Source: Bacteroidales bacterium (GTDB lineage Bacteria; Bacteroidota; Bacteroidia; Bacteroidales; G3-4614). From it: a DNA stretch of 64,000 nt. Every line of letters begins with the position of its first letter. Position 1 is the stretch's first letter. The notes under the pieces were generated by a model. That model had not been told where the DNA came from, ran no database searches, and was given only the letters and a program-made list of their open reading frames with translations. Positions 14,297-54,989 of this stretch are shown here, in pieces. The stretch lies in contig SUXK01000001.1 in assembly GCA_015061035.1 (NCBI GenBank), positions 248,001 to 312,000 of the forward strand. Reading direction: 5' to 3'. Made by a program: the position numbers and the translations under genes.

Positions 14297-14600
14297 TTAA
14301 ACTTTTTGGTCGCAAAAAGTTACAAAAACTCTCGCACCCGATAAAACAGTCATTCAACTTTTTGTTCGGGAGTCCTACGGACATCCCTCAGTCAAGTCTC
14401 ATTTGCCGTTACATCTATTCTTTCGTTTGCAGGGGCTGTGGAACTCGCTTCGCTCAAACAGTCCTCGCCCTATTTCTGCAAACTTCAAGGCTTTCACTAT
14501 GTTTTATAATGGTGCGAATTTATTTAAACATTACTATAGTTTTCAATGTGATATAATCTTATATATTATATTAAAACTTTTGTTGATTTAAAAAATATTA
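14297..14600. other. Non-coding stretch with a reading-frame relic and GC-rich palindromic patch
   Basis: No convincing gene. A 264-nt open frame from 14293 has no start context and an improbable composition. At 14432-14464 there is an imperfect hairpin (CTGT...ACAG around CTCGCTTCGCTC). The base composition is richer in GC than the flanks. It may be a repeat remnant; with a single copy in the window this cannot be tested here. Confidence 0.35.
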
Positions 14601-14609
14601 ATACTTTTG
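14579..14609 (+). promoter_or_regulatory. Promoter of structured leader, copy A
   Basis: TTTG (14579-14582), 19 bases, TACTTTTG (14602-14609): exact Bacteroidetes consensus. The transcript would begin within the following REP palindrome and run about 395 nt to the first ATG at 15010. Confidence 0.72.
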
Positions 14610-14716: not shown

Positions 14717-14745
14717 AAATAATAAATTTTGCCTATGAAACATTA

Positions 14746-14961
14746 GCGTATAGTTGATACGCACATTTTAGATATTGGAAAAAGCGTTTTAGCAATTATT
14801 CTTTCTTCCTAAAAGTTTGGCGACTGAATAGACAGAAAGGAGTAATAGTTAAGATGCTCGTACTATATTGGTACGGGCTTTTAGTTATTCTTCTGTCGAG
14901 GTTGCGCCAAACACCATAGGAAGAGAATAGACTAAAGGTTCCGTGCTTTTTTTATGTGCGT
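14746..14961 (+). ncRNA. Structured leader RNA element, copy A
   Basis: Rod-shaped RNA of about 200 nt. Closing helix ACGCACAT (14759-14766) with ATGTGCGT (14954-14961); conserved internal segment TTTAGATATTGG; helix AAAAAGC with GCTTTTT; helix ATTC..TCTTCCTA with TAGGAAGAGAAT; helix TTTGGCG with CGCCAAA; ACAGAA with TTCTGT; apex GCTCGTAC/GTACGGGC with a 7-nt loop. A hairpin GCGTAT (14746-14751)/ATACGC (14757-14762) overlaps the 5' arm of the closing helix, so the two cannot form together. Copies B and C share the architecture with different helix sequences. It precedes the secreted-protein gene at 15010 by 48 nt. Confidence 0.72.
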
Positions 14962-15009
14962 GTTTTAAATAGGGATAGGAACACTATAATAACTTAAAAA
15001 TACATTAAA

Positions 15010-15504
15010 ATGAAAAAAGTATTGAAAATATTTTACTTTGCTGTATTGTTACAAATATTTATGCCAACTATTTTGGCAACGAACTATATGAATGTATATC
15101 TTACAACACAAGGTTCATTTCAGTCTATTAGTATAGATGAAATAGACAAGATTACCTTTCCCTCTGCAGATGAAGTAAATGTCACAATCTTAGGTGTAGC
15201 AATACCAATGGCAATAGATAATGTAGAGGTTATTACTTTCGGAGATGCCAATATAACAGCCATAGAGGAAATCGAAGTTGAAATATCTGATATAGAGATA
15301 ATCTATTATGGAGACCAACTACGTATTTCAAGTACTGAAGTAATTAATCAAGTTCAGATATACAATATGCAGGGTGTGTTGATACAGTCGTTTGCTCCAG
15401 AAGTAGAAATAGTAACACTTGAAGTAGGTGCTTATTCCAAAGGTGTATATGTAGTAGCAGTACAATCAGGAGAAGAGATAGTAACTAAGAAAATAATAAA
15501 ATAG
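15010..15504 (+). CDS. Secreted protein with T9SS type A sorting domain
   Basis: 164 residues. Signal peptide at about 1-23 (ending PTILA-TN). The middle has the VYLTTQGSFQSISIDEIDKITF pattern, resembling the start of the next protein (VNIYKGSDVLYSLPVAEIDSIKF). The last 75 residues look like a Por secretion-system C-terminal domain: LRISSTEVINQVQIYNMQGVLIQ, a short strand, YSKGVYVVAVQSGEEIVTKKIIK. Exported by T9SS to the surface or medium, by inference. No catalytic domain is recognised; it is nearly all sorting signal. First gene after leader copy A. Confidence 0.78.
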   Translation: MKKVLKIFYFAVLLQIFMPTILATNYMNVYLTTQGSFQSISIDEIDKITFPSADEVNVTILGVAIPMAIDNVEVITFGDANITAIEEIEVEISDIEIIYYGDQLRISSTEVINQVQIYNMQGVLIQSFAPEVEIVTLEVGAYSKGVYVVAVQSGEEIVTKKIIK

Positions 15505-15592
15505 TTGTTGTTCTTGTGTCTTATATATATAACTATTTTATGTATAGTCATTTGTTAATGACACTAAAACTAATAAATTAAAAATATAAAAT

Positions 15593-16291
15593 ATGAAAAC
15601 AAAACTAATCACATTGTTAATAGCAATATTTGCAGTAATAGGCAGTGCTTATACGCAGACAAAAGTAAACATTTATAAAGGAAGTGATGTTTTATATAGT
15701 TTACCAGTAGCAGAGATAGATAGTATAAAATTTGATAAGCAAAAAAACTATAACAAAAATGGTCATGAGTATGTTGATCTTGGTTTGTCTGTAAAATGGG
15801 CAACTTGTAATGTTGGTGCAGATTCTCCTGAAGATTACGGAGATTATTTTGCATGGGGAGAAACATCTTCAAAGGATATTTATTCATCAAAAACCTATAA
15901 TTGCTCTTTGGATGTTTATACAACAACATTGCCATTATTGTATGATGTAGCAAATGTAAAATGGGGTGATGGTTGGCGTATGCCAACTGTAGTTGAGCAA
16001 GAAGAACTAAGAGATACAAACAATTGTATCTGGACGTGGACTACCCAAAATGGAATAAACGGATTTAGAGTAACAAGTAAAAAGAATGGTAATTCTATAT
16101 TTCTTCCTGCTGCGGGTTATCGTTATGAAGGTAACCTTATTTATGAAGGTAATAGTGCAGGGTATTGGTCAAGTTCAATCAATACACAAGGTTACAGTTA
16201 TGCATTTTATATAGCCATTAGTTCGGGTTCTGTAACAGGAGGAAGTAATAATAAATATCTTGGGCACTCTATTCGTCCAGTTTGCGAGTGA
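15593..16291 (+). CDS. Secreted FISUMP/DUF1566-type protein
   Basis: 232 residues with a signal peptide (MKTKLITLLIAIFAVIGSAYTQ). After an N-terminal EIDSIKF segment comes a C-type-lectin-like domain of the Fibrobacter succinogenes major paralogous type: EYVDLGLSVKWATCNVG, YFAWGET, WGDGWRMPT, FLPAAGYR, GYWSSS and SIRPVCE. Such domains act in surface binding or as variable display scaffolds; no enzymatic role is claimed. 88 bp after the T9SS protein, same direction, probably the same transcript from leader A. Two shorter relatives are at 53911 and 54432, downstream of leader copy C. Confidence 0.82.
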   Translation: MKTKLITLLIAIFAVIGSAYTQTKVNIYKGSDVLYSLPVAEIDSIKFDKQKNYNKNGHEYVDLGLSVKWATCNVGADSPEDYGDYFAWGETSSKDIYSSKTYNCSLDVYTTTLPLLYDVANVKWGDGWRMPTVVEQEELRDTNNCIWTWTTQNGINGFRVTSKKNGNSIFLPAAGYRYEGNLIYEGNSAGYWSSSINTQGYSYAFYIAISSGSVTGGSNNKYLGHSIRPVCE

Positions 16292-45080: not shown

Positions 45081-45092
45081 TTGTCAGCAAAA

Positions 45093-45120
45093 GTAGGGAC
45101 AGAGCATGCTCTGTCCGATA
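45093..45120 (+). repeat. REP palindrome, GACAGAGC class, upstream of RAYT
   Basis: GTAGG-GACAGAGCATGCTCTGTC-CGATA: perfect palindromic core. About 73 bp before the RAYT start codon. Confidence 0.8.
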
Positions 45121-45147
45121 GAAGGATTAAAAGAATATTTTTACGAT

Positions 45148-45175
45148 TAGGGACAGAGTAAACACAGTCCGAAAT
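45148..45175 (+). repeat. Decayed REP palindrome upstream of RAYT
   Basis: TAGGGACAGAGTAAACACAGTCCGAAAT: same ends as the neighbouring REP, imperfect stem. 18 bp before the RAYT start codon. Confidence 0.6.
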
Positions 45176-45192
45176 ATAAATTAAAAAAGATA

Positions 45193-45720
45193 ATGTCCAA
45201 GATATTGCCCAAAAGGAAATCACCTCGAGCACAATGGATAGAATATAATGCAGGATTGTATTTTATAACTATATGTACTCATAATTGGGTACACTATTTT
45301 GGTGAAATAAAATTTGGGAAAATCTATTTAACAGAGTTAGGGGAATATTTAGACAAAACATTACAAGGTGCGAGTAATCACAACAACTATATAAACATAT
45401 TGCAATATGTGATAATGCCAAACCATTTACACGCAATAGTTGAAGTAGAATATGAAGAATATTCGGACAGAGCGTGCTCTGTCCCTACGATGGATGAGCG
45501 TCTGGTAAATAAAGTAAAGTCCCCGAAAATACCACTTCTTTCAATATTTGTCAGATCCTTAAAGTCTGAGATTACAAGATATGCAAATATTAAAAATATT
45601 ACATTCAGATGGCAGAATCGTTATCACGACCATTTAATAAGGGGAGTAGAAGATTGTAACAACATATCTCAATATATAGAAAATAATGTATTAAATTGGG
45701 AAAAAGATTGTTTCTGTTAA
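45193..45720 (+). CDS. REP-associated tyrosine transposase (RAYT, Y1/TnpA-REP family)
   Basis: Single-strand endonuclease of the HUH class that recognises REP hairpins. 175 residues. The HUH motif is H78-L-H80 in VIMPNHLHAIV; a conserved tyrosine is Y130 (KSEITRYAN) in the place of the nucleophile; the C-terminal signature is FRWQNRYHDHLIRG with YIENNVLNWEKD. The start is like other RAYTs (YFITICTHNW at 23-32, LTELGEYL at 46-53). REP palindromes lie on both sides, and one is inside the reading frame at residues 91-99, SDRACSVPT, in the variable loop. All motifs and the frame are intact, so it may be active. Confidence 0.93.
   Translation: MSKILPKRKSPRAQWIEYNAGLYFITICTHNWVHYFGEIKFGKIYLTELGEYLDKTLQGASNHNNYINILQYVIMPNHLHAIVEVEYEEYSDRACSVPTMDERLVNKVKSPKIPLLSIFVRSLKSEITRYANIKNITFRWQNRYHDHLIRGVEDCNNISQYIENNVLNWEKDCFC
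45462..45490 (-). repeat. REP palindrome inside the RAYT reading frame
   Basis: TTCGGACAGAGCGTGCTC followed by TGTCCCTACGA on the plus strand; it is the flanking REP in reverse orientation, with one base change in the core. It is in frame and encodes SDRACSVPT. Confidence 0.8.
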
Positions 45721-45736
45721 GAGTTTGAATAAAAAA

Positions 45737-45765
45737 GTAGGGACAGAGCATGCTCTGTCCGAGAA
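45737..45765 (+). repeat. REP palindrome, GACAGAGC class, downstream of RAYT
   Basis: GTAGG-GACAGAGCATGCTCTGTC-CGAGAA, identical in core to the copy at 45093 and in the same orientation, 17 bp after the RAYT stop. Confidence 0.8.
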
Positions 45766-45876: not shown

Positions 45877-45984
45877 AAATAATAATAAAAGTAATAACAA
45901 TCTCATCTTTGAACATCCTTTACGGAAGAGGGCTGGGGTGAGGATAAAAAAAATTTGCCTATGAAATAAAACGTATAATTTAAT

Positions 45985-46183
45985 ACGAACATTTTAGATA
46001 TTGGAAAAGCGTTTGCTGATATTCTTATCCTTGAAACTTCGACACTTTCAAACAACCAAGAATAAAGCGAAGACGTTCATGCTATGTATATGGCGTGGGC
46101 TTTACTCGTTTATCTGGTTGTAAGGTAGTCGAAGACCTCAAGGGTGGATAAATAGAGTTTTGTCCGCGTTTTTTTATGTGCGT
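45985..46183 (+). ncRNA. Structured leader RNA element, copy B
   Basis: Same architecture as copies A and C with different helix sequences. Closing helix ACGAACAT (45985-45992) with ATGTGCGT (46176-46183), one mismatch; conserved TTTAGATATTGG; AAAAGCG facing CGCG and a T tract; TTATCC..TTGA with TCAAGG..GGATAA; CTTCGAC with GTCGAAG; ACAACCA with TGGTTGT; apex GTTCATGC/GCGTGGGC. A 5' hairpin CGTAT/ATACG overlaps the closing helix, as in copy A. 62 nt before the ATG of the small lipoprotein. Confidence 0.72.
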
Positions 46184-46245
46184 ATTTCTCAACTTTTTTA
46201 AGGACATAATATTGATAAGTTTATTTTTTTTTAATTTGATAAAAA

Positions 46246-46401
46246 ATGAAAAAGAATATTTATCGTTTCTTTGTGGTGATAGTTGCTACTACATTGCTAA
46301 GTGTTGCACTTCAAAGTTGTGCTATCTTTAGTGATCCAGCCTACCAAGAATCTTTCAGACAAGGATGGAATTTGACTGCACCTGAAGAATATCGTTACTA
46401 A
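46246..46401 (+). CDS. Very small lipoprotein
   Basis: 51 codons, found by reading the frame after leader B. Begins MKKNIYRFFVVIVATTLLS, lipobox LQSC (Cys at residue 25), then a 26-residue mature peptide (AIFSDPAYQESFRQGWNL...). The good lipoprotein signal and the position right after the leader support expression. Function unknown. Confidence 0.65.
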   Translation: MKKNIYRFFVVIVATTLLSVALQSCAIFSDPAYQESFRQGWNLTAPEEYRY

Positions 46402-46476
46402 TTCATTAAAAACAAAAACGGAGTAAACCGAAAAGCCGATAAGTGAGTAGGAGATATATTTAAAATTTAAATTATT

Positions 46477-46803
46477 ATGAAAAAAATATTTTTATTATTA
46501 GCAATCATTTTAGGATTTTCATTTAATATAAATGCAGAAAAAGCAGAAATTACAGGTCAAAAAGATAAATTTGTAGACTATGAAGTTATTCATAATAGCA
46601 GTAATTCACGTGGTCATAGTTATACAATAAAATTTAAGAATGATAATGATTTTTCTGTTATTTTGTCTATCCTTAAACCTAAAGGATGTAGTAACTATTC
46701 GGCGGAATATGGAATATGGATTCTTGCTTATGACACAAAAGAAGTGGTTGTGCTTACAGATGTTGAGCCATATGGGTGGTATATAGCTTTTAGAGAGAGT
46801 TAA
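46477..46803 (+). CDS. Small exported protein of unknown function
   Basis: 108 residues, signal peptide 1-20 (SFNINA-EK). The mature part is beta-rich, with a VDYEVIHNSSNSRGHSYTIKFKNDNDFSVILSI stretch that resembles the middle of the next protein (MRTVYFENYRNIPVTVLYVF). No domain recognised. In the transcript started by leader B. Confidence 0.65.
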   Translation: MKKIFLLLAIILGFSFNINAEKAEITGQKDKFVDYEVIHNSSNSRGHSYTIKFKNDNDFSVILSILKPKGCSNYSAEYGIWILAYDTKEVVVLTDVEPYGWYIAFRES

Positions 46804-46811
46804 ATATTGTT

Positions 46812-47222
46812 ATGTTTATGAGAAAGATACTATTTTTTATCATTATATCTCTATTGTTTAGTTATCAGATGGATGCTCAAAATACTGTTATTATTCAAAA
46901 TAGTACCACAAGTAATAAAGTTGATGATAGTAATAGTAAAGTATTTTATATACAAGGGATACCATCTACTGAGAATATTGGAGGAGTTGATGTTTATACA
47001 GAAGGAAATCCAGATCCATATGGTAATCCTTATATGAGAACTGTATATTTTGAGAATTATAGAAATATACCAGTAACAGTATTGTATGTTTTTACAGTTG
47101 GACGAGGAGGAAATGAAGAGGAGAGAGAAGGCTCTATAACGTTAGGTCCTAAGAAAACAAAATCTTTAGATAGAAGATATAACTCACCTAAGGACTTTAA
47201 ATTAATAGTTAGAGCCTTATAA
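46812..47222 (+). CDS. Small exported protein of unknown function
   Basis: 136 residues; the ATG two codons later (46818) is also possible. Signal peptide to about 22 (SYQMDA-QN). Beta-rich mature part ending in a basic tail (LGPKKTKSLDRRYNSPKDFKLIVRAL). It shares a NxYxxPVTVxxxF-like segment with the gene 9 bp upstream and may be a diverged paralogue. Unknown function. Confidence 0.65.
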   Translation: MFMRKILFFIIISLLFSYQMDAQNTVIIQNSTTSNKVDDSNSKVFYIQGIPSTENIGGVDVYTEGNPDPYGNPYMRTVYFENYRNIPVTVLYVFTVGRGGNEEEREGSITLGPKKTKSLDRRYNSPKDFKLIVRAL

Positions 47223-53505: not shown

Positions 53506-53537
53506 TTTGGAATTTTATAAATAATTCATTACCTTTG
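53506..53537 (+). promoter_or_regulatory. Promoter of structured leader, copy C
   Basis: TTTG (53506-53509), 20 bases, TACCTTTG (53530-53537). The leader to the ATG at 53911 is about 367 nt; no REP palindrome here, unlike copies A and B. Confidence 0.68.
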
Positions 53538-53622
53538 TAATATAATAAATTAATACTAATCTTTATCCCTTTATATAGAGGATAGAAAAAATGAATGCCT
53601 ATGAGATAATTACTATAGTATA

Positions 53623-53827
53623 ATACATACATCATAGAAATATAGAAAAAAGCGTTTTTGCTAAATTCTTTCTACTCGAAAGTTTGGCGACTAAAGGACT
53701 GACAGGAATAAGGTAAGGATGCTCGTACTTTTAGTACGGGCTTTTGGTTATTCTGTCAGTCCTTTAGTCGCCAAACACCTCGAGTAGAGAATATACTGAA
53801 AGTACCGTGCTTTTTTTATGTGTGTAT
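53623..53827 (+). ncRNA. Structured leader RNA element, copy C
   Basis: The best-paired copy. Closing helix ATACATACAT (53623-53632) with ATGTGTGTAT (53818-53827), one G-T; AAAAAAGC with GCTTTTTT; ATTC..TCTACTCGA with CGAGTAGAGAAT; then 23 perfect pairs from TTTGGCGACT to AGTCGCCAAA (GGACTGACAG facing CTGTCAGTCC); AATAA/TTATT; apex GCTCGTAC/GTACGGGC with loop TTTTA. The ATGCCTATGAGA segment before it echoes TTTGCCTATGAAA of copies A and B. 84 nt before the first ATG. Confidence 0.74.
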
Positions 53828-53910
53828 AAGTTTGTAAAGAAAAAGGTACTAAGAAAAATATTAAATTACAAAAGTAAGTTTGTGTAATAATTTAAAATTT
53901 AGATTTAAAA

Positions 53911-54381
53911 ATGAGAAAACTATTAATATTGAGTTTGTTTGTGCTTACATATGCGACTTTGTCGGCTCAAAACATTATAATACAGCAGAATAATAACCAA
54001 CAGGTACCTAAAGAAAAAATTATAGAGAAGAAAATATATGTCCCAGTAGAGAAGAAAGAAGAACCTAAACAACCAATCTGTTTACATGGTTATTTATATG
54101 TTTTTCCTGAAGATTTGGGATCGTTTAGAGAATATCCTAGAAAAATGATAGAGTCTTTAAATAGATCAAGGCCATATGGACGTGATAATTGGCGATTACC
54201 AACATATGAAGAATTACGATTGATAGCTGAGAATTATGATAAAATAGGAGATGTTAAATATATAGGGCAAATGGGAAGTTTTTATATGCATAGTTATTAT
54301 GGAAATGCTTGCGTTTGTCATACTCATGAATTAGTATCTGGCAATTATGATTATCCAATCCGTCTAGTCTCTACAAATTAG
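53911..54381 (+). CDS. Exported FISUMP/DUF1566-like small protein
   Basis: 156 residues, signal peptide 1-19 (TLSA-QN). A glutamine/asparagine- and lysine-rich linker (NIIIQQNNNQQVPKEK...VPVEKKEEPK) leads to a short C-type-lectin-like domain: ICLHGYLYVFPEDLG, DNWRLPTYEELRLIAENYD and YPIRLVSTN. The WRLPT and IRLV motifs are those of the DUF1566/FISUMP family, but the domain is shorter than at 15593. First gene after leader C. Confidence 0.75.
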   Translation: MRKLLILSLFVLTYATLSAQNIIIQQNNNQQVPKEKIIEKKIYVPVEKKEEPKQPICLHGYLYVFPEDLGSFREYPRKMIESLNRSRPYGRDNWRLPTYEELRLIAENYDKIGDVKYIGQMGSFYMHSYYGNACVCHTHELVSGNYDYPIRLVSTN

Positions 54382-54431: not shown

Positions 54432-54989
54432 ATGAAAAAAATAATATTGTCAATATTAGCTATATTGAGTTCTTATAATGTGTATTCACAATCTATTTCT
54501 TATGGTGGAGTTGAGTGGTGTTGGTCAGTTTTTCAAGGTAATTATACTACTGTAAATTGTAAAGAGAAAATAAATCATCATGAATTTTACAGTAGGAATA
54601 TTCCATCTGGATGGCGTTTGCCAACAAAAGCAGAACTATTAAGTCTTCTAAGTTCAGCTAAGGCTTTATATATTTATACAAGTGATCCTAATTATGCTCG
54701 TTTCGAATTTGATGATAATAGATCCTTAATTGGTTTAACTTTGGATTTAACATTTGGTGTCGCATTTGGTGGATATCGTCAGACGATGGGAGCTAAATGT
54801 TCTTATTTAGTAAAGGAGGGTGTAATTAGTTTTAGTCATAGTCGACCTATTCGAGAAGAAATTCGCGAAGATAGAATATATCCTCTTTTAGAAAATAATG
54901 AACAAATAAGATTTGGTATTGAAGAATATGCTAAATTTGAAGCAACATTTGATAAACCTGCATCTGTAAGATTAGTTAGAGATTTGTAA
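54432..54989 (+). CDS. Exported FISUMP/DUF1566-like protein
   Basis: 185 residues, signal peptide 1-19 (NVYS-QS). Shares YGGVEWCWSVFQGNYTTVNC, SGWRLPTKAELLSLLSSAK and a final SVRLVRDL with the FISUMP/DUF1566 fold. 50 bp after the preceding relative, same transcript. No enzymatic residues recognised; a surface-binding role is conceivable. Confidence 0.73.
   Translation: MKKIILSILAILSSYNVYSQSISYGGVEWCWSVFQGNYTTVNCKEKINHHEFYSRNIPSGWRLPTKAELLSLLSSAKALYIYTSDPNYARFEFDDNRSLIGLTLDLTFGVAFGGYRQTMGAKCSYLVKEGVISFSHSRPIREEIREDRIYPLLENNEQIRFGIEEYAKFEATFDKPASVRLVRDL

Follow-up and report, generated by a model that had tools for sequence, protein, structure and literature searches.

A structured leader RNA of Bacteroidales, probably acting in cis, upstream of exchangeable exported and defence-type genes

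The window, a stretch of 64,000 nucleotides of a Bacteroidales genome that was analysed here as a whole, contains three copies of a leader sequence (A, B and C), each with small genes downstream, and this raises the question of what the leader is and what the genes behind it have in common. An earlier note on this DNA had proposed one RNA element ahead of a set of surface or periplasmic display proteins, with FISUMP-type proteins behind both A and C. The features of the three loci are as follows.

14579..14609, + strand: leader A promoter-like site, TTTG-N19-TACTTTTG (from the sequence)
14726..14967, + strand: leader RNA copy A (model matches)
14938..14942, + strand: pseudoknot 5' strand GTTCC of A, immediately 5' of GTGCTTTTTTT (pairing analysis)
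14978..14982, + strand: pseudoknot 3' strand GGAAC of A (pairing analysis)
15010..15504, + strand: exported mini-protein (164 aa) with a predicted T9SS type A sorting domain at residues 102-164
15593..16291, + strand: exported FISUMP/Lcl_C-like protein (232 aa), paralogue of the target of a diversity-generating retroelement (DGR) in the same genome
45811..45841, + strand: leader B promoter-like site, TTTG-N19-TACTTTTG (from the sequence)
45952..46189, + strand: leader RNA copy B (model matches)
46161..46165, + strand: pseudoknot 5' strand TGTCC of B (pairing analysis)
46202..46206, + strand: pseudoknot 3' strand GGACA of B (pairing analysis)
46246..46401, + strand: 51-aa lipoprotein-like ORF behind B, with a relative also behind leader F
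46418..46453, + strand: Rfam DUF805b motif 5' of the second B gene (33.5 bits, gathering threshold 35.6)
46477..46803, + strand: small exported protein, no family
46812..47222, + strand: small exported protein, no family
53506..53537, + strand: leader C promoter-like site, TTTG-N20-TACCTTTG (from the sequence)
53592..53831, + strand: leader RNA copy C (model matches)
53802..53806, + strand: pseudoknot 5' strand GTACC of C (pairing analysis)
53845..53849, + strand: pseudoknot 3' strand GGTAC of C (pairing analysis)
53911..54381, + strand: exported protein with a weak Lcl_C match and a WRLPT motif
54432..54989, + strand: exported protein with a weak Lcl_C/FISUMP match and a WRLPT motif

Covariance models were built from six copies in the window's genome (A, B and C together with D, E and F, which lie elsewhere in it; model R1) and from 44 diverse members (model R2). 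In the window, A, B and C were the sole strong matches to R2, at 182-186 bits, and the next was the antisense strand of C at 36 bits, confirming that the three leaders are real. The six copies align across ~240 nt with a mutual identity of only 49-82%, and a double change that keeps the pairing was found in 24 of the 70 predicted pairs; copy A alone gave a folding z of -6.95. Among the 44 diverse members, changes on both sides were seen in 64 of the 70 pairs, and 505 double-change cells were counted versus 149.5 after shuffling and 67-96 when the columns were slid by 1-3, in an alignment that was made to the model and thus leans towards the structure. The leader is a structured RNA: a terminal helix closes a long hairpin that covaries, and a pseudoknot brackets a conserved U-run.

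The 5' strand of the pseudoknot is located just 5' of the U-run (GUUCC in A, UGUCC in B and GUACC in C), and the complementary strands (GGAAC, GGACA and GGUAC, respectively) are found beyond the closing helix. At least five contiguous pseudoknot pairs were present in 87 of 118 copies (permuted mean 45.5, maximum 58), with many different helix sequences, of which some are composed of A/T only and probably pair by chance. This set began from 146 copies: seven that lacked a T-run or downstream DNA were dropped, and of the remaining 139 rows a further 21 were dropped for want of a recognisable apical hairpin, which left the 118. Six-base matches between the 3' arm of the apical hairpin and the CCACGC strand were found in 100 of 118 copies (permuted mean 76, maximum 84). 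A terminator model formed by this 3' arm and CCACGC 5' of the U-run was considered, but we do not commit to it, as the lower stem covaries strongly and would be crossed by such a pairing. The AAAAAGC strand may also form a competing local hairpin, for which a loose pattern matched 91 of 146 copies and a stricter one 33 of 139. When several copies were inspected by eye for a common short ORF starting from an ATG after the U-run, neither the frames nor the lengths were conserved.

The position of the leader was examined relative to promoter motifs and genes. A TAnnTTTG motif was found near the 5' end of the leader (from -140 nt to +40 nt of the RNA) in 108 of 142 copies, its frequency peaking 13-23 nt 5' of the RNA. 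In control stretches of 180 nt, the motif was seen in 229 of 1982 taken downstream and in 32 of 282 taken upstream. A -33-like element was present as well in 73 of the 142 copies. The TTTG-N19-TACTTTTG site at leader A is presumably of the Bacteroidetes -33/-7 promoter type. In 118 of 125 cases the longer open frame shared its strand with the RNA, and the first ATG or gene start was a median of 60.5 nt past the RNA. The promoter motif, the conserved fold, the shared strand and the gene just downstream together mark the element as a putative cis-regulatory leader RNA. The DUF805b motif (RF02914) was found between leader and gene above its gathering threshold of 35.6 at leader F (35.9 bits) and at three further loci (L277, 46.7; L270, 37.7; L243, 41.7), and below it at B (33.5), D (35.5) and E (30.5), and Rfam scans gave no DUF805b match at A and C. 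In the window's genome, a leader lies upstream of five of seven DUF805b matches above 30 bits (one of these leaders, at C3:13879, being weak), and two are without one.

Within the order, R1 matched 76 of 295 genomes (E up to 0.01) and R2 matched 52 of 149 (1e-5); across the phylum, R2 matched 48 of 395 (1e-4), and the window's genome was among the matches in every one of these searches. Nineteen loci from the phylum search were read, and by eye most carry the same internal motifs. An exact leader pattern was found in at least 120 stretches of named genomes, and among the 80 listed nearly all belong to Bacteroidales records; R1 recovered 78 of these 80, the two that it missed being matched by R2 (63 and 47 bits). 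Antisense matches reached up to 45.2 bits, hinting at the scores that generic hairpins can attain, and the genome searches with R1 and R2 were made within the phylum. R2 found 20 matches in the window's genome, one of them antisense, which gives 19 copies, the weaker ones down to 37 bits. One copy (L121) is in a record titled Synergistales bacterium MS502-76, which is possibly mislabelled or a mixed bin. In another genome (G023; contigs C54, C338, C497, C597 and others), many leaders lie no more than a few hundred bases from the low-numbered end of a contig. This is what would be expected if the repeats break metagenome assemblies, and copy numbers in that genome are probably underestimated.

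With Rfam 15, no match at gathering was found in the window, and permissive scans of copies A-F and 12 class- or phylum-level loci gave leader matches that were all far below gathering. A further 20 loci matched only tRNA, DUF805 and DUF805b, and 12 loci of the genus only DUF805b. The leader was not described in the portions of the literature that were searched, including parts of PMC8040213, PMC9723704 and PMC4159848, and the supplements of PMC8040213 could hold the element unnamed. On the scans and genome searches together, the leader appears to represent a new family, without an Rfam 15 match, that is order-wide and reaches more sparsely into the phylum.

The gene next to leader A encodes the 164-aa mini-protein, in which a C-terminal sorting domain was found above the curated cut-offs of TIGR04183 (34.8 bits versus 23; residues 107-164) and PF18962 (31.2 bits versus 27; residues 102-163), making it a predicted T9SS type A substrate. 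It had been described as mostly a sorting domain, but this does not hold, as the domain accounts for only 35-38% of the protein. The N-terminal half forms a segment of its own, in which there are two IDxIxF-like stretches; the first of these is kept in four of four aligned relatives. Five homologues were used for an AlphaFold2 model (mean pLDDT 63), whose confident part is mainly the sorting domain; the two best fold matches of this model were the T9SS C-terminal domains 8gl6_D and 7pq4 (E 7e-4), with DUF3244 Ig-like domains just below. The second protein matched Lcl_C (PF07603, which we take to be the former DUF1566) with an E value of 1.5e-5 and 25.7 bits, under the cut-off of 34.9, and FISUMP (TIGR02145) with 3.6e-4 and 21.3 bits, under the curated cut-off of 41.65. 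The ORFs and the T9SS mini-protein named at this locus were thus upheld, and the second protein, below both cut-offs, is FISUMP-like only.

Profile scans of the three proteins behind leader B reached no curated family cut-off, and N-terminal export signals were recognised in all three by eye, in agreement with their earlier description as small exported proteins of no recognised fold. A near-identical 51-aa lipoprotein is encoded behind B (46246-46401) and behind F (L011:8785-8937), at both followed by DUF805b and then by different exported genes. Just 5' of leader B (45089-45762), palindromic GGACAGAGCATGCTCTGTCC-type repeats flank an ORF (45193-45720) with a match to Y1_Tnp, a family of IS200-like transposases (24.5 bits versus a cut-off of 23). 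The two C proteins scored 22.1 and 17.9 bits for Lcl_C, versus a cut-off of 34.9, and both contain a WRLPT motif by eye, hence the label FISUMP-like is fair for them but membership of the family is not proven. The structure predicted for the second (54432-54989) has a mean pLDDT of 36.

The genes downstream were compared in 146 copies, comprising 80 of 83 matches in one search and 66 of 76 in the other; of the 13 matches left out, 12 were antisense and one was a second match on L107. Loci in named genomes had been chosen by the exact leader pattern and the others by model score. At least 500 nt of downstream sequence was available for 139 copies, of which 134 have a first ORF and five have none. 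Two home-made, crude rules for export were applied to this order-level set. By the strict rule 106 of the 134 first ORFs are exported; with a minimum length of 100 aa the count is 92 of 113, versus 100 of 462 control ORFs (p 2.8e-32, with p values overstated because the rules are crude and related genomes are not independent). The loose rule gave 115 of 134 and, for at least 100 aa, 102 of 113 versus 165 of 462. Control ORFs less than 3 kb downstream on the RNA strand had been excluded. When counted by sequence cluster, 66 of 89 are exported by the strict rule, and seven ORFs called non-exported are on reading short and probably spurious. These counts were made in the order-level set alone, and it is only there that a bias to export is established.

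The 130 first proteins fell into 89 sequence clusters, and FISUMP was thereby lost as the common factor of the cargo. A family scan of 124 proteins (the 130 first proteins minus 10 short or duplicate ones, plus four genes in second or third position in the window) recorded T9SS tails in nine, BspA-type LRR in nine, Lcl_C in four, PEGA in three, lipocalin-like domains in three and BACON in two. A FISUMP regulon was rejected, the cargo being far more varied. Ten proteins that looked non-secreted were picked for a closer scan, which put a name to six of them: a ResIII-type helicase (L113), an EVE-HNH protein (L246), a WYL protein (L104), a methyltransferase (L236), an EVE protein just under the cut-off (L267) and an SNF2-PLD helicase that the loose rule had miscalled as exported (L262).

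In the window's genome, the first gene was judged by eye to be exported behind 15 of the 19 leader copies, in line with the genome-wide link between the RNA and signal peptides that the earlier note had suggested as a check. Behind three of the 19, an exported lipoprotein gene comes second after a small HTH-like ORF, and the remaining copy stands at the start of a restriction-modification operon. In that operon (L316; G000:C13:40585-40819 and downstream), the leader is followed by a C5 DNA methylase, a BpuJI-type endonuclease and a second C5 DNA methylase, all above the Pfam cut-off. The HTH-like first ORFs (66-71 aa; L317:880-1077, + strand; L322:3695-3907, - strand; L319:782-994, + strand) lie behind weak leaders, and in L317 and L322 the start codon is inside the 3' strand of the RNA, directly after the U-run. 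The HTH label was given by reading the sequence, with Pfam HTH_3 below the cut-off for L319 and nothing for L317 and L322. At the class- and phylum-level loci that were read, SusC-like N-termini, lipoproteins and cytoplasmic-looking genes (L328, L329, L337 and L343) were found, and some class-level copies are located 5' of regulator-like genes.

The first genes that could be named among the non-exported ones were mostly restriction- or defence-type or regulatory, and no nameable first gene was a cytoplasmic housekeeping gene, the finding that the earlier note had said would count against it. The idea of one RNA ahead of display proteins is therefore supported in part, by the export bias (92 of 113 versus 100 of 462), but its restriction to display proteins is contradicted by the defence and regulatory cargo. 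Strictly surface proteins were rejected as the cargo, given the restriction and other defence-type genes behind leaders. The link between the genes is exchangeable surface or defence cargo, not FISUMP.

Matching chromosomal sites were then compared between sister genomes, and at five of eight comparable sites the cargo was replaced and the leader kept; the cargo was kept at the other three (F/L270, L276/L278 and L281/L282). The A site is the slot between what we take to be a decarboxylase gene and, on the same assumption, recA. In this slot, the window's genome (G000) and G004 carry the leader, the mini-protein and the FISUMP-like protein, G006 the leader, the mini-protein and other genes, G002 the leader, DUF805b and an unrelated 109-aa exported protein, and G005 only 106 nt with neither leader nor cargo. 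Between G000 and G002, identity is ~94% over the promoter and leader to +16 past the RNA, no similarity is found across the cargo, and identity returns to 97-98% at recA. The BLAST similarity ends at 14983, one base past the pseudoknot strand. At B, similarity to G002 breaks at +17 (46206, the last base of the pseudoknot strand), the cargo is unrelated and similarity then resumes. At the D site each of four genomes has a different cargo and the breaks are at +91, +82 and -2; further breaks were found at +84 (L263/L264) and +19 (L269/L271, a site matched by its upstream flank only), all of these HSP ends being uncertain by a few bases. At these five sites the leader persists while its cargo is exchanged.

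A weak leader copy (44.7 bits with R2, with a 7-bp pseudoknot by eye) was also found at the head of a candidate DGR operon outside the window (L353; G000:C5:180510-185663, minus strand), and the only RVT_1 match of the genome (46.1 bits) lies 4 kb behind it. The order in the operon is leader, T9SS mini-protein, 671-aa protein, 187-aa ORF, template repeat and reverse transcriptase (RT), and the 671-aa protein has a FISUMP-like domain at its C-terminus. Over 212 columns, mismatches between the template and the variable repeat fall on 20 of 58 adenines and on three of 151 other bases (p 4e-10). An RT called by RVT_1, a template repeat and an adenine-biased variable repeat are therefore present, as expected of a DGR, and we assign the locus to this class on its sequence. 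The DGR target shares 62% identity over 181 aa with the 15593-16291 protein, shares the first 49 residues of that protein at 59%, and itself scores 20.8 bits for FISUMP (TIGR02145). Three other FISUMP-type genes behind leaders (L319, L271 and L275) also differ from the DGR template more at adenines, less cleanly (uncorrected p 0.0003, 0.00006 and 0.02, respectively). Neither this link nor the cargo exchange had been foreseen in the earlier note.

The reading that we favour, and regard as probable, is that the leaders are one structured RNA family at the 5' end of messengers, where they would control exchangeable exported or defence cargo in cis. The TAnnTTTG site just 5' of the leader would make it the 5' end of the messenger, the RNA would then fold into the long hairpin, the terminal helix and the pseudoknot bracketing the U-run, and the gene would begin a median of 60 nt downstream, sometimes past DUF805b. 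The leader may decide whether the transcript or translation enters surface or defence genes, which evolve fast and are costly; the shared head (leader, DUF805b and signal-peptide start) could serve as a recombination handle by which cargo is swapped and control kept. Regulation by the leader is what we infer from these features. A wider reading, of phylum-wide RNA-headed cassettes in which the leader marks fixed slots and swapped surface, secreted, anti-phage or DGR genes come under the same RNA control, is put forward tentatively, as a possibility somewhat short of likely.

The swaps themselves, at five of eight sites with breaks at -2, +16/17, +19 and +82 to +91 from the RNA end, and the several leader copies per genome would also suit a repeat that is mainly a DNA recombination handle, with the RNA fold secondary or kept for another reason. 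However, covariation of helix and pseudoknot, the 5' promoter motif and the strict orientation point to selection on the RNA, and copies A-F of a single genome are only 49-82% identical, making this explanation unlikely. A MITE-like inverted-repeat DNA element would likewise account for the long inverted repeat, the several copies per genome and the variable cargo, but it was rejected as very improbable in the face of compensatory changes in almost every pair, a single orientation to the genes and the promoter motif. Two exact leader patterns gave zero matches in viral contigs, a result that says little on transposons.

An independent trans-acting small RNA, with its own promoter and ending at the U-run, would fit the promoter motif, the length of ~240 nt and the conserved U-run. 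The 3' strand of the pseudoknot is located past the U-run in a covarying helix, for which reason this candidate was set aside, and same-strand genes at short distance and a strongly non-random cargo also argue against it; we judge it quite improbable. That the leader is part of a retron or of the DGR itself is suggested by the only RVT_1 match of the genome being in an operon headed by the leader RNA, but there are 19 leader copies for one RT match and the template repeat is a separate downstream sequence. Another RT could be missing because the genome is 86% complete, and we give this explanation hardly any credence. If the leader is a cis-acting messenger head, as preferred here, the recurrence of a ~240-nt folded leader ahead of exported and defence-type genes that are unrelated to each other points to a common layer of control where the genome meets phages and hosts. 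It would offer a searchable handle, through covariance models and conserved motifs, on arms-race genes of unassigned function, and the same leader with different cargo at one site amounts to a natural experiment on RNA sensing and gene exchange.

Among known systems, a riboswitch was considered, and the leader cargo was found to be diverse and not of one metabolic pathway. In antitermination by NusG paralogues of the UpxY/LoaP type, 5' leaders control operons for surface products, and the leader described here resembles these in its place before such genes. This mechanism was rejected, as a second, specialised NusG was not found in eight genomes of the genus, seven of which have one PF02357 match and the eighth none. 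Flavo-1, which we take to be an Rfam family, gave no match in the Rfam scans of the window copies and further leader loci. According to PMC9723704, Flavo-1 and other flavobacterial elements are, like the leader, structured and repeated in Bacteroidota, some of them in 5' regions, and Flavo-1 hits are sense or antisense to transcribed regions without clear function. Messengers of Bacteroidota generally have short 5' regions, in contrast to the ~240-nt leader; PMC9723704 quotes medians of 24 nt for F. psychrophilum and of 32 nt for B. thetaiotaomicron. PMC4159848 names DUF1566 and Fib_succ_major among the known target domains of DGRs. The FISUMP-like protein at A is of the same kind as these variable proteins and a paralogue of the target in its own genome. 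It differs from a DGR target in that the only RT match of the genome and the template repeat are at another locus, and its end is not close to the template (29 nt at 83%). The DUF805 and DUF805b motifs (RF03081 and RF02914) are, like the leader, Bacteroidota motifs 5' of start codons and often share its 5' region; however, they are 35-68 nt in length, whereas the leader extends over ~240 nt, lies upstream of them and has a fold of its own.
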